Part shown: piece by piece, positions 52,856-56,791 of the stretch
Position numbering within the stretch: position 1 is the stretch's first letter
How the letters are laid out: each line of letters begins with the position of its first letter
Source of the DNA: Haladaptatus caseinilyticus
Lineage (GTDB): Archaea; Halobacteriota; Halobacteria; Halobacteriales; Haladaptataceae
Assembly (NCBI RefSeq): GCF_026248685.1
Contig: NZ_CP111041.1
Span: forward strand, 186,001-250,000
DNA: 64,000 bases
Reading direction: 5' to 3'
The notes under the pieces: model-generated
What the model was told of the DNA's origin: nothing
Databases searched by the model: none
What the model saw: the letters and a program-made list of their open reading frames with translations, nothing else
Program-made: the position numbers and the translations under genes

Positions 52856-52937
52856 GTTTCGCGAATTCGTTTCTTGCGTTCTACAACCCCCAGTTCTTAT
52901 AGAAATTTAATTAGTGATACCTCGTAAAGCGATCTGA

Positions 52938-53225
52938 CTACTCAAGAGGTTCATTATCACGAGGATCACTAATGAAGGCAAATTCACGAGTCGGCTCGTG
53001 AATGAGTTCAACGTGATTACTTGCTTTTAGGACTTCCAAGCGTTGGTAGACGCTATTTCTGCTAAATCCAGTTTCGTCGACAAGTCTTCCTTTCGTAGCA
53101 ATTCCCCATGGTTCGTCACCATTGCAACCTTGTTTTAGACAGTCGAGGATAGCTCGGTCAGTTTTTGTGAGATCGCCGGCGTCCATGATTTCAGTCGAGG
53201 TTTGTTGTGCTAACACCATATGCAT
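52938..53225 (-). CDS. HTH regulator (phiH1-repressor/MarR-like winged helix)
   Basis: 95 residues: LTKTDRAILDCLKQGCNGDE, then a winged helix IATKGRLVDETGFSRNSVYQRLEVL and the wing SNHVELIHEPTREFAFI, with an acidic tail. The domain resembles repressors found with haloarchaeal proviruses and plasmids. It faces away from the small-gene run beginning at 53395 and may regulate it. Start ATG 53225. Confidence 0.75.
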   Translation of the reverse strand: MHMVLAQQTSTEIMDAGDLTKTDRAILDCLKQGCNGDEPWGIATKGRLVDETGFSRNSVYQRLEVLKASNHVELIHEPTREFAFISDPRDNEPLE

Positions 53226-53325
53226 ACTGACATCATCTGGGCATTTAGAACTGTCTGTTTGACCATCTTGAATAGATGTGCAGCATGCACAAATATAAGT
53301 GGGTGCAGTATGTAGACGTAACTAC

Positions 53326-53380
53326 GAAGCGCGGATTGCCTTCACAGAAAGGTCGGTGCTAGAGACACCGACCGCGCTTC
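53326..53380 (+). ncRNA. two-part stem upstream of the small-gene run
   Basis: An inner hairpin GGTCGGTG-CTAGAGA-CACCGACC (53351-53373) is closed by an outer stem GAAGCGC (53326-53332) with GCGCTTC (53374-53380), leaving an 18-base bulge on the 5' side. In total 15 base pairs, all Watson-Crick, with no mismatch, ending 14 bases before a leader frame. It could be a structured 5' leader, a small RNA or a recombination/replication site. Strand is assumed from the downstream genes. Confidence 0.45.
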
Positions 53381-53394
53381 TGGGATACAGAAGC

Positions 53395-53466
53395 ATGACT
53401 AGCAAAACCCTTTCCGTAGAAAAACGCATCGACTACCAACCACTTGCTCTCGGAGGACTCCACTAA
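53395..53466 (+). CDS. 23-residue leader frame coupled to the next gene
   Basis: ATG 53395 starts a 23-codon frame (MTSKTLSVEKRIDYQPLALG, then GLH) whose TAA shares its last base with the ATG of the next gene (TAATG). A GGAGG lies about ten bases before that ATG. The same TAATG junction links other genes in this run, so the frame is probably translated and couples the operon. A product function is not implied. Confidence 0.45.
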   Translation: MTSKTLSVEKRIDYQPLALGGLH

Positions 53467-53960
53467 TGGCGTCCTTCGACGAGAAACCCAACGGCGGCGC
53501 ACTCTCCCTCAAGGCCCAATTCGGCGCAAAAGTCTTCCACCCCGTCAAGCGCCTCGAACCCACACCCGACACCGCCACACAAGACCCCGACCAACCCACT
53601 CCCACTACCGACGAGTCAATCACTCGCGCGTACCTCGTCGAACTCCGCGTGGGCTTTCAAACCCGAACCAAGACCACCGGCCAAGAACCTTACCTGTACT
53701 GCGTCTACGCCACAGAAGACTGCCAGCAATTCTTCGAACGTCGACTACCGATCGACTACGGCGAGGAGGGCTTCCAGATTCCCGAGGACACCGACACCTA
53801 CCGGTCGGTCGCAACCACCAAAACGGGCAATCCAAACCTCCCCTCGACACCACCGGGTGAAACCCACGCAGAAACCCGCAGGCACTACCAGCGCATCCTC
53901 AAACAGTGCTACGACATCGACACCACCACCCACACCACCACAACCGAGGTGACCGCGTAG
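53466..53960 (+). CDS. unknown protein 1 of the small-gene run
   Basis: 164 residues. A predicted mixed alpha/beta middle, SITRAYLVELRVGFQTRTKT then EPYLYCVYATEDCQQFFERR, lies between a Pro/Thr/Asp-rich N-terminal linker and a Thr-rich C-terminus. No family is recognised. It has a GGAGG ribosome-binding site and is coupled to the leader frame upstream. The G/C content is higher than in the flanking genes. The following frame begins immediately after its stop. Confidence 0.7.
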   Translation: MASFDEKPNGGALSLKAQFGAKVFHPVKRLEPTPDTATQDPDQPTPTTDESITRAYLVELRVGFQTRTKTTGQEPYLYCVYATEDCQQFFERRLPIDYGEEGFQIPEDTDTYRSVATTKTGNPNLPSTPPGETHAETRRHYQRILKQCYDIDTTTHTTTTEVTA

Positions 53961-54341
53961 ATGCACCTCACTGAACGCCCTCCCCAAAGAGCGCTAGCTA
54001 TCGGCACCCGAGCCCACGACGAACCACCCAAGAACTGCGGCATGTCGTGTCAAATAAACCCACTGGTGTGCGTAAACTATTTGACCCTAGTCGGGAACCA
54101 GCAACCAAGGCAAAACAGCCTGAAACGCCAGCGAGCGAGTCCTTATCGGCCCAAACGCGGCGATATCGTACCGTACTCCACGAGCATCAGCCAACGGCAA
54201 TTCCACACTTGGTTCCCACCCATGAAACTCACATCCCGGAACCCCAGCAAGCGACGACAACTCCAGCCCACCCACGACCCCAGCGAACACACGTCCCCCC
54301 TTACACCTGACGTGGACCCATACCAGTGGAGGCGAGCGTAA
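53961..54341 (+). CDS. unknown protein 2 of the small-gene run (frame uncertain)
   Basis: The ATG follows directly on the stop of the preceding gene, and the TAA overlaps the next start (TAATG), which favours this 126-codon frame. However, the product is basic and Arg/Gln/Pro-rich. Part of the interval has a rival frame (GTG 54047 to TGA 54310) with more haloarchaeal composition: VRKLFDPSREPATKAKQPET. Either the true gene is one of the two, or it has suffered frameshifts. No function assigned. Confidence 0.4.
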   Translation: MHLTERPPQRALAIGTRAHDEPPKNCGMSCQINPLVCVNYLTLVGNQQPRQNSLKRQRASPYRPKRGDIVPYSTSISQRQFHTWFPPMKLTSRNPSKRRQLQPTHDPSEHTSPLTPDVDPYQWRRA

Positions 54342-54772
54342 TGGCCCACGATTGTGAGCCACCGCACACGCCCACTAGAGACGACCACAGCGAGTGGTCA
54401 CCAGACGACAAAATCACCGAAGCCGAGATCAAAGAGACGTTCGAGCAGTGCCCCCATTGTGGCACGTATATCGTTCAGTGCAATGGGTCACACTCCTGCA
54501 TCCCAGCCGACTACCAGCCCCATGCAGACGAACCGGAGATCCGCCGTCGCATTGAGGCCAGCCCCTTCCCCGACGACGATCCGGTGCTCATCCGCAAACA
54601 CAAACGGCACGACACGTACGCCTACCACGAACCCGATAGCGACGACACACCCCTCTGTTCGCTCGGTGCCGACCAGTCGTTCCTCACACGTACTCGTGAG
54701 CACGCCCACGAGCAATTCCTCGCACCTTGCCAGCGCTGCGAACGCATTCGCGAAAAACAGGAGGGAGAGTAA
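54341..54772 (+). CDS. zinc-finger-like unknown protein 3 of the small-gene run
   Basis: 143 residues. The first half has a Cys/His cluster, CPHCGTYIVQCNGSHSC, likely to bind zinc. A second Cys set near the C-terminus (PLCSLGADQSF, then APCQRCERI) surrounds a helix. It is acidic. It is coupled to its neighbours on both sides by TAATG overlaps. A nucleic-acid or protein-binding role is a reasonable guess only. Confidence 0.7.
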   Translation: MAHDCEPPHTPTRDDHSEWSPDDKITEAEIKETFEQCPHCGTYIVQCNGSHSCIPADYQPHADEPEIRRRIEASPFPDDDPVLIRKHKRHDTYAYHEPDSDDTPLCSLGADQSFLTRTREHAHEQFLAPCQRCERIREKQEGE

Positions 54773-55104
54773 TGACCGACCGAGACACTGTTCTCGCACT
54801 CGAATGTGCAGACCCAATCCAAATCCACACCGAGCAACGCACGCTCACGGGTGTCGTCTACCAGTGCGACCATTCAGAACCCGAACTCACCTGCCGCGGC
54901 CCTGATCCCGGCGAGCACGTCCTGTACGTCGCCACACCAACGGACGACTGCTACCGACTCCAGTACACCTACTACGACGAAATCGAGCATACCGACGCGA
55001 AACTCGAACGATACGATCTGACACCCACCGGCCGATATGCCTGGGTTCGGACTGGTGCGCGTATAGAGACCATCACCAACCCAAAAGGGGGTGAGCAGGC
55101 GTGA
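54772..55104 (+). CDS. unknown protein 4 of the small-gene run
   Basis: 110 residues, beta-rich: RDTVLALECADPIQIHTEQR, TLTGVVYQCDHSEPELTC, and later LYVATPTDDCYRLQYTYYDE. It looks like a small beta-barrel/SH3-like or Sm-like domain protein. No family recognised. Its start shares a base with the preceding stop, and its end overlaps the next gene by four bases (GTGA). Confidence 0.65.
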   Translation: MTDRDTVLALECADPIQIHTEQRTLTGVVYQCDHSEPELTCRGPDPGEHVLYVATPTDDCYRLQYTYYDEIEHTDAKLERYDLTPTGRYAWVRTGARIETITNPKGGEQA

Positions 55105-55505
55105 GTACCGACCAGCACTCGCTCGTTCCAAAGCCACTGAATCTACGCGATCCGGAAACACTTACTCAACGTCTCTTGCCGGGTGACCGCGTTCGCATCA
55201 CGACGACCGATCTGCCGCGGACGATCTGCACGGTCAGTGAGACGAACCCACAGACAAGCGACGCGCCACTACTCGTTCTCACCGCACCGCCGATCACCAC
55301 GACCGCACAGCACGCTCTCCACCAAGCCACCTTCCACTGCATCAGTCACTCCGACTCGCCCATGACTGTTCTCGAGCACACCCACACCGCCACTGACACG
55401 ACTACTCACTGTATCGGCACGCTCACCACTATCGCACACTTCCCACACCTCTCGACGCCAACAGACGACACTGCGGTCAATACGGAGGTGTCTGTCGATG
55501 AGTAA
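55101..55505 (+). CDS. unknown protein 5 of the small-gene run
   Basis: 134 residues starting at GTG. The N-terminal part contains TQRLLPGDRVRITTTDLPRT and a beta-rich Thr/His-rich domain (PPITTTAQHALHQATFHCIS). Like the previous product it could be a small beta-barrel domain; the LLPGDRVRI block is shaped like the start of an OB- or KOW-type barrel. Overlaps both neighbours. Function unknown. Confidence 0.62.
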   Translation: MSTDQHSLVPKPLNLRDPETLTQRLLPGDRVRITTTDLPRTICTVSETNPQTSDAPLLVLTAPPITTTAQHALHQATFHCISHSDSPMTVLEHTHTATDTTTHCIGTLTTIAHFPHLSTPTDDTAVNTEVSVDE

Positions 55506-56175
55506 CACCACGATTTCCGAAGTATCCAGTACTCTCGATGGAGACAACATTTCGATCAACGAGCTCGCAGAGCATATCCAATTGCTCACTGGCCGCATCG
55601 ACGACCTCGAACAAGAAGTCGCCACGAAAGACGAGCGAATTGATGATCTCGAACAACAGGTCGAAAATCTCGAAGCTGACCACAACACACACGACAAACG
55701 TATGGACGCCCTTGGCACCGGTATCGCGAGTGCCAACGACGATATCGCCGAGCTCGAAGACCGTATTGACGCTACGGACAGCGACGGCAGCGACAGTAAT
55801 ACACCAGCGGACGACTGGACGCCACTCGAGCGACTATCAATAATTGGTGACGACGCATTAGACGAGCACGTCTCGGCGAGCGATAGGCGTGCAGTCACAT
55901 TGTTCGAACACTGGGATGAGTGGTCAACCAAGACTCCGCAGGGAAACCTCTTGAAGACGAGTGACAGCCTCAAGTCGCTGCTGTCGACAGCAACGGATGA
56001 GCATCTCGCGTGGAAGCAGGTGTACCGCGCCTGCCGTCGCGTCGAACAGCTGTCGAAGGGGCGTCTCACGTTCTTCCAGCACGACAAACACGGGTGGATG
56101 CTCAAACAACACCGGAAGTTCTCGTCTGCACAACCCTCCAGTGCGGATGTGACAGCGTCGTCAGTAACCACGTAG
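55498..56175 (+). CDS. coiled-coil protein 6 of the small-gene run
   Basis: 225 residues. Residues about 25-90 form a coiled coil with regular heptads (HIQLLTGRIDDLEQEVATKD, ERIDDLEQQVENLEADH). An Asp/Ser linker leads to a C-terminal helical domain with WTPLERLSIIGDDAL and AWKQVYRACRRVEQLSKGRL, shaped like a DNA-binding winged helix ending FFQHDKHGWML. It starts inside the end of the previous gene. It may be the structural or DNA-binding member of the system. No family name known to me. Confidence 0.72.
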   Translation: MSNTTISEVSSTLDGDNISINELAEHIQLLTGRIDDLEQEVATKDERIDDLEQQVENLEADHNTHDKRMDALGTGIASANDDIAELEDRIDATDSDGSDSNTPADDWTPLERLSIIGDDALDEHVSASDRRAVTLFEHWDEWSTKTPQGNLLKTSDSLKSLLSTATDEHLAWKQVYRACRRVEQLSKGRLTFFQHDKHGWMLKQHRKFSSAQPSSADVTASSVTT

Positions 56176-56467
56176 CCACCCCCGTCAGCACACTCATCCC
56201 GAGAGGGTTACAACTCTAACACGAACCTAATCAACACGACACGAAGCACTGTAACCAACTATCGACTACTCCCAAGTATGTCTTGTTTTGCGGTTGGTTT
56301 GCGGTTAAAGAGAGGACAGTGGTGCATGAGTTGGTTCTGACGACGGTGTCAGTAGTTCGTGGGAAAGAACGAGTAATGGACTACTGATTTTCCGTCACTT
56401 GGGAGTGATTTACACGGGTATTTTCTCTAGAGTAGACCACTTATCGCATTAGCACATATTTTTGAGT

Positions 56468-56791
56468 ATGAGTACTGGCTTGGGAACGAACGGCAGCAAC
56501 CGCGAATTGGTGCACTTCGTGACTCAGCAGACGCGGATTGCACTTATCGTCAATATCCTTCAGCATCCACAGCAACTTCTCTCGATGTATGAGCTTGAGC
56601 AGCTCAATCCAAGCGTCAGCAAGGGAACAGTCTATAAACACATCCAAAAATTGATCGACGCAGGGATCGGAGAGGAGGCCGCACTGCCGGATGGCCAACG
56701 CCGACAGGTGTATCCCTGGAAATTCTACGGACTGACCGACGAGGGGCGTACGTTCCTCAATGCGGTTTTCTCCTTACCTTCTCGTAACTGA
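56468..56791 (+). CDS. PadR-like winged-helix regulator
   Basis: 107 residues: LVHFVTQQTRIALIVNILQH, LLSMYELEQLNPSVSKGTVYKHIQKL and a wing ending YGLTDEGRTFLNAVFSLP. Typical PadR/haloarchaeal winged helix. ATG 56468 is two codons inside an in-frame TTG. It converges with the P450 gene, 29 bases apart. The preceding 290 bases are non-coding. Confidence 0.75.
   Translation: MSTGLGTNGSNRELVHFVTQQTRIALIVNILQHPQQLLSMYELEQLNPSVSKGTVYKHIQKLIDAGIGEEAALPDGQRRQVYPWKFYGLTDEGRTFLNAVFSLPSRN

Follow-up and report, generated by a model that had tools for sequence, protein, structure and literature searches.

What do six small, tightly packed genes do together in Haladaptatus caseinilyticus, and how are they controlled? 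The question is raised by an operon in a 64,000-nucleotide stretch (hereafter the window) that spans positions 186001–250000 of contig C6 (557 kb, genome G000). A first-pass annotation, made from the window's sequence, had described a leader open reading frame (ORF) and six genes joined by overlaps, and these ORFs are present as described, consecutive ones being overlap-linked from the starts listed in Table 1. We propose that the region is probably a plasmid-maintenance operon, serving replication or, less likely, partition, and controlled by a leader RNA of a new, switch-like type.

A three-way-junction RNA ends at the leader start codon

The strong two-part stem that had been noted just upstream of the leader ORF is real and is more than a chance fold: in the window it folds at z = −3.7 (single sequence), and compensatory changes conserve it at 22 other loci. 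It had been under-described. Alignment of the 23 upstream regions resolves the two parts as helices P1 and P3 and places a third helix, P2, in the apparent bulge. RNAalifold, given an unfitted alignment of 22 loci, recovers the same three-helix junction. Across 44 distinct copies, 15 of the 18 pairs show two-sided changes and 97.3% of cells are paired, with none of 500 shuffles as good; this alignment was fitted to the model, slid controls drop to 37–49%, and the unfitted alignment agrees. P1 tolerates G-U pairing, with many G-U cells among its pairs. Rfam 15 yielded no match at E ≤ 1 within the region searched (52900–56600).

A fourth hairpin, P4, pairs the GCUUC of the 3′ strand of P1 with the GAAGC immediately 5′ of the leader AUG. 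Because the same GCUUC strand is used by both helices, P1 and P4 are, by sequence, mutually exclusive. The apical pairs of P4 covary, being paired in 41 of 44 cells, whereas 10,000 shuffles averaged 26 and reached at most 35. Energy minimisation gives the P4 state for the window and P1-P2-P3 for five other loci tested; in further copies little energy separates the two folds. Among 67 distinct copies, P4 reaches at least 5 bp in 63 and shares the P1 strand in 61, the P4 pairing not being part of the covariance model structure; the hairpin ends 0–1 nt before the AUG. A start codon lies at the end of the RNA in 65 of the 67, a figure that is partly so by construction because the ATG columns were in the model. 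At locus L273 the three strands involved change in concert (AGAGC/GCTTT/GAAAGC).

The RNA heads unrelated genes across the haloarchaea

The first-pass annotation took the stem to be an accessory of the six genes; it proved instead to be an independent RNA element that stands ahead of unrelated ones. A covariance model (R1) finds it in further genera, nearly always 3′ of a TATA-like box and 5′ of an ORF. With a broader model (R2, E ≤ 1e-4), it is detected in 115 of 341 haloarchaeal genomes, representing 50 of 81 genera and ∼10 family groups, and about half of the matches scanned for this model have a TATA-like motif 29–32 nt 5′ of P1. The genes downstream encode plasmid, SWIM zinc-finger and LAGLIDADG/helix-turn-helix (HTH) proteins, and inspection of sequences adds integrase-like and ParA- or ParB-like genes. 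In six Halalkalicoccus-type genomes (G065, G040, G057, G029, G050 and G014) and in G181, the RNA heads a small operon for Cys-rich proteins that ends in a homologue of gene 6 of the window ∼1.1–1.2 kb downstream. On four or more viral contigs, too, it is followed by genes; two of six pattern matches in viral contigs (L282 and L284) lack the upstream structure, look like chance and were set aside.

Several further settings were observed. In several genera the RNA lies immediately 5′ of operons of the HRAMP type (diverged Cas7/Cas5; L238, L242, L252, L262, L265 and L276), a type described previously (PMC8730458), and HRAMP expression may therefore be under control of the RNA. Haladaptatus chromosomes hold several variant copies with a longer P1 (L246, L247 and L248, with more in G090, G152 and G161) that precede proteins of 50–62 aa, Cys-rich in L246 and L248. 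The first ∼16 codons after the RNA are similar (M-S/T-x-N-x-x-x-x-E-K-x-I-x-x-E/Q) in otherwise unrelated proteins, so that the module may extend into the coding sequence.

The functional diversity of these genes, among which no shared pathway hints at a ligand, would suit an RNA that, instead of switching, serves mobile genes as a constant 5′ element for stability or enhanced translation, with P4 a by-product of the GAAGC repeated before the AUG; a Shine-Dalgarno sequence, moreover, is not a strict requirement of haloarchaeal translation (PMC8241225). We consider this explanation unlikely, as the apical pairs of P4 covary independently of P1 and the joint change of all three GAAGC/GCUUC strands in L273 is not required of a by-product. 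The stem is better placed in a previously uncatalogued folded RNA that, from its sequence, would act as a switch.

The gene set is a recurrent unit of Haladaptatus plasmids

Gene 1 is present in all nine Haladaptatus genomes searched and was not found in 284 other genomes of the order. Its 23 close copies, including that of the window, are distributed over 22 contigs (a single copy on 21 and two on G190:C4); identity to the window copy is 80–89% at the 22 other loci and 46% in one further chromosomal copy. At these 22 loci, nearly all of them plasmid-borne, the order HTH, stem, leader, gene 1, (gene 2), gene 3, gene 4, gene 5 is kept and the stem is present each time, so the set is no peculiarity of the window. 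The length of the leader ORF is identical at 23 of 23 loci. By sequence, roughly half of these loci have a homologue of the divergent HTH gene at the same position, with 27–86% identity. Neighbouring genes outside the conserved block vary between loci, which indicates that the block is a plasmid backbone and not a single inherited neighbourhood.

Conservation differs along the operon. Genes 4 and 5 are close to their counterparts throughout (Table 1), and gene 3 shows 40–74% identity at other module loci and has homologues in Halorussus as well. Gene 2 is recognisable at eight loci (31–63% identity) and is absent from the remainder, where a ∼58-nt gap takes its place; its frame 0 is open at nine loci, with 5–9 stops in the next frame, and it appears to be an optional but frame-conserved ORF. 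None of genes 1–5 gave a match above threshold in Pfam, PHROGs or NCBIfam. As had been noted, the base composition departs from that of the flanks, G+C being 0.54–0.59 in the operon and ∼0.45–0.50 directly upstream, and the two strands of the operon region differ strongly in composition, with a GC skew of −0.15 to −0.23.

Two further observations concern the set. On G118:C7 and other Halorussus plasmids, homologues of gene 3 lie in small, similarly laid-out operons and number up to ∼10 on one plasmid of 219 kb. At L098 (G000:C7) and L112, gene 6 is cut down to 53 and 111 aa with the leader and genes 1–5 intact; the constant genes may therefore function without it.

The terminal protein and its downstream site vary together

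An AlphaFold model supports the coiled coil and possible winged-helix end ascribed to the gene 6 product by the first-pass annotation: an N-terminal coiled coil (residues 20–94) is followed by a C-terminal winged-helix-like domain (mean predicted local distance difference test score, pLDDT, 79 for the whole protein), and the C-terminal domain modelled alone gives a mean pLDDT of 81 and a predicted template modelling score of 0.72. Foldseek returned weak matches only, winged-helix in kind, none with E below 0.05. The sequence has no family match and no HUH motif with tyrosine, and no match to gene 6 was found in the phage collection. Homologues occur in other families also. The terminal gene is what varies between sister loci: either the initial 55–60 residues are common and lead into a C-terminal part that belongs to one of several unrelated kinds, or a different gene stands in its place. 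Gene 6 is presumed to encode an interchangeable specificity protein, an initiator or site-binding factor.

Terminal proteins of the same C-terminal type are followed directly by a common non-coding segment of ∼200–250 bp bounded by inverted repeats, the left of which sits at or inside the last codons of the terminal gene. The 3′ limit first assigned to the set, at the gene 6 stop codon, was therefore too short, because the cis site extends to ∼56351. The window motif (TGACAGCGTCGTCAG ... CTGACGACGGTGTCA) is also found 3′ of type-G homologues in Halorussus, Halococcus and Actinarchaeum. For type B, both arms of the motif switch jointly between GTAATC and GTAACG. By shuffling, the inverted repeat is significant (p ≤ 0.05) in 24 of 36 loci. 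The sequences show a pairing of the gene 6 C-terminus with the downstream site, the two differing in step from type to type.

Table 1. Features of the operon and its surroundings, in window coordinates.
Feature	Position	Strand	Basis or remark
Divergent small winged HTH gene, presumed regulator, pointing away from operon	52938..53225	−	PHROG matches
TATA-like box (TATAAG)	53294..53299	+	Sequence; 32 nt 5′ of P1
Three-way-junction RNA	53326..53380	+	P1 53326–53334/53372–53380; P2 53338–53342/53349–53353; P3 53354–53358/53366–53370
P4 hairpin (GCTTCTG/CAGAAGC)	53376..53394	+	GCTTC common to P1; ends at leader ATG
23-codon leader ORF (MTSKTLSVEKRIDYQPLALGGLH)	53395..53466	+	TAATG junction to gene 1; GGAGG within leader's end
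Gene 1, 164 aa, unknown, Haladaptatus-specific	53466..53960	+	Homologue comparison
Gene 2, 126 aa, optional conserved frame	53961..54341	+	
Gene 3, 143 aa, double Cys-cluster (zinc-ribbon-like)	54341..54772	+	CPHCG...C/H and C..C clusters
Gene 4, 110 aa, unknown small protein	54772..55104	+	67–82% identity at 22 other loci
Gene 5, 134 aa, unknown small protein	55101..55505	+	61–78% identity at 22 other loci
Gene 6, 225 aa, coiled coil and winged-helix-like end, presumed initiator/site-binding	55498..56175	+	AlphaFold, homologues
Origin/centromere-like cis site	56150..56351	+	TGACAGCGTCGTCAG at 56150–56164 within gene 6 end before stop; inverted CTGACGACGGTGTCA at 56337–56351
Further cis-site motifs (ACTCCCAAGT/ACTTGGGAGT)	56268/56397	+	Same site

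The divergent gene upstream had been called phiH1-like. An HTH gene facing away from the operon is indeed present, and its assignment is weak: the Pfam match is sub-threshold, and PHROG 4278 (9e-6) and PHROG 2440, a transcriptional regulator (9e-5), are matched. Directly after the cis site lies a small PadR-like HTH gene (56462–56791).

Small plasmids favour replication over partition

The complete 4,491-bp Halomicrobium urmianum plasmid, two circular contigs of about 5.3–5.6 kb and Haladaptatus plasmids of 17.6 and 21 kb each carry a gene-6 homologue with its site. No other initiator is recognisable on the 4.5-kb Halomicrobium urmianum plasmid or on one circular contig of ∼5.5 kb, and for this reason we favour replication initiation over partition. 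A common partner on these plasmids is a gene for a ribbon-helix-helix coiled-coil (‘CopG’) protein. Such proteins at L202, L203, L204, L220, L221 and L222 often have a Trp-rich C-terminal end (e.g., WYRWWKRQ) that is perhaps a membrane anchor.

Several observations weigh against a replication operon. Gene 6 is without a catalytic domain, and other replication candidates are present at two loci, an HUH-like protein in L202 and a primase-helicase-like protein in L221. Orc1/Cdc6 genes occur elsewhere on all G000 contigs, so the large plasmids need not replicate from this site; the sole one found on the contig of the window is ∼260 kb away and none adjoins the site. The GC-skew peak falls ∼9 kb from the module on C6 and near it on C3, positions that are suggestive, and is missing on C4; the C-rich strand of the module biases this test. 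A clear inverted repeat is missing for terminal proteins of types D and F, and the gene-3 family is present in many copies per replicon on Halorussus plasmids.

Some of these points would be expected if gene 6 and the downstream repeats formed a partition cassette, that is, a centromere-binding protein and its centromere, with replication left to Orc1/Cdc6 origins elsewhere; every G000 contig has Orc1/Cdc6 genes. A coiled coil joined to a DNA-binding end resembles plasmid partition helpers, the specificity domain is variable at roughly one copy per replicon, and the RNA also stands ahead of ParA-type genes in L249 and Actinarchaeum. The operon, however, has no ParA-type ATPase among genes 1–6 (Pfam, NCBIfam), and circular plasmids of ∼4.5–5.5 kb have gene 6 and the site with no recognised initiator; a partition cassette is accordingly the appreciably less probable account, and replication remains our preferred one. 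Co-resident copies of the module are of different type in G000, G186, G190 and G147; a rule of one compatible type per cell was dropped, as type A occurs twice in G161 and type D twice in G166.

An integrated element or a defence or regulatory system had also been suggested for the set. An integrated element or regulatory system comes close, the set being recurrent and nearly always plasmid-borne, but no integrase is linked to it and nothing points to defence for the six genes. Although the same RNA heads HRAMP-like operons (PMC8730458), integrases and genes on viral contigs, genes 1–6 match no defence or viral family in Pfam, PHROG or NCBIfam, and gene 6 and its site are found on minimal plasmids, so that a defence or virus-derived regulatory module is very unlikely. 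Less credible still is a DNA element (a regulator's operator, a mobile-element end or a single-strand origin) in place of the RNA: a strong inverted repeat close to a divergent HTH gene in a plasmid context would allow it, but the stem has three helices that tolerate G-U pairs and a fixed place right after the TATA box, adjoining a sense-strand start codon, and the mobile-element end in particular was rejected because the conserved block is not bounded by repeats and no repeat-bounded mobile unit is seen around the operon.

Proposed mechanism and relation to known systems

In the mechanism that we infer for the plasmid-maintenance operon, transcription would start a few bases 5′ of P1. The nascent RNA could fold as P1-P2-P3, in which the start region of the leader (GAAGC-AUG) would stay free, or as P4, in which this region would be paired with the GCUUC strand. 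The choice of fold would set translation of the leader and thereby, through the TAATG junction and overlap coupling, that of genes 1–6. The coiled coil of gene 6 may oligomerise, and its interchangeable winged-helix end may bind the inverted repeats that lie across its own stop codon and ∼180 bp further on. Such binding would most likely initiate replication at the site, which would then be an origin, and less likely serve plasmid segregation; genes 1–5 would be a constant accessory set.

The leader resembles bacterial translational riboswitches and strand-exchange leaders in being a structured 5′ element with two exclusive helices, one of which engages the start-codon region. In contrast to those, the RNA is archaeal, is without an Rfam family or known ligand, stands before mobile-element genes instead of serving a single metabolic pathway and adjoins the AUG without a Shine-Dalgarno sequence. 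The literature searched yielded no description of a natural, riboswitch-like class of RNA across haloarchaea.

For gene 6 and its site, the haloarchaeal Rep-Arvir/SNJ2 ORF19 replicon (PMC13107129) offers a likeness, as it couples a winged-helix gene to an essential downstream origin of ∼210 bp with inverted repeats. By analogy, the element directly 3′ of gene 6 may be origin-like; Rep-Arvir proteins, however, have an N-terminal TATA-binding-protein-like tyrosine endonuclease (DUF7845), whereas gene 6 has only the coiled coil and winged helix, with no Pfam match. The crenarchaeal pRN1 minimal replicon (PMC4234260) likewise has a replication operon with a regulator and an origin immediately 3′ of the last gene, but its ORF904 is a primase-helicase, which gene 6 is not, and its origin is a 100-bp stem-loop. 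KfrA-type proteins (PMC7821693, PMC7783346) are plasmid-encoded DNA-binding coiled coils tied to maintenance, as gene 6 may be; they carry the DNA-binding head at the N-terminus and the long coiled coil at the C-terminus, an order that is reversed in the gene 6 model, and there is no sequence match.

A wider interpretation, which we offer tentatively, is that a widespread natural class of switch-like 5′ leader RNA may gate the translation of mobile-element genes, among them those for plasmid replication and partition, integrases, viral genes and HRAMP, from their first codon upon one common cellular signal. The mobilome of haloarchaea would then share an on/off layer made of RNA, which in this operon would be joined to a new initiator family with swappable winged helices and matching origins. 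As a compact RNA with two exclusive folds that adjoins the AUG and heads dozens of unrelated mobile genes, it would allow one reporter to test both a riboswitch-like class and translation start in leadered haloarchaeal mRNAs that have no Shine-Dalgarno sequence. The pairs of gene 6 and site would provide a family of small plasmid replicons for haloarchaea whose parts can be combined at will, and they may account for the coexistence of several megaplasmids within a single Haladaptatus cell.

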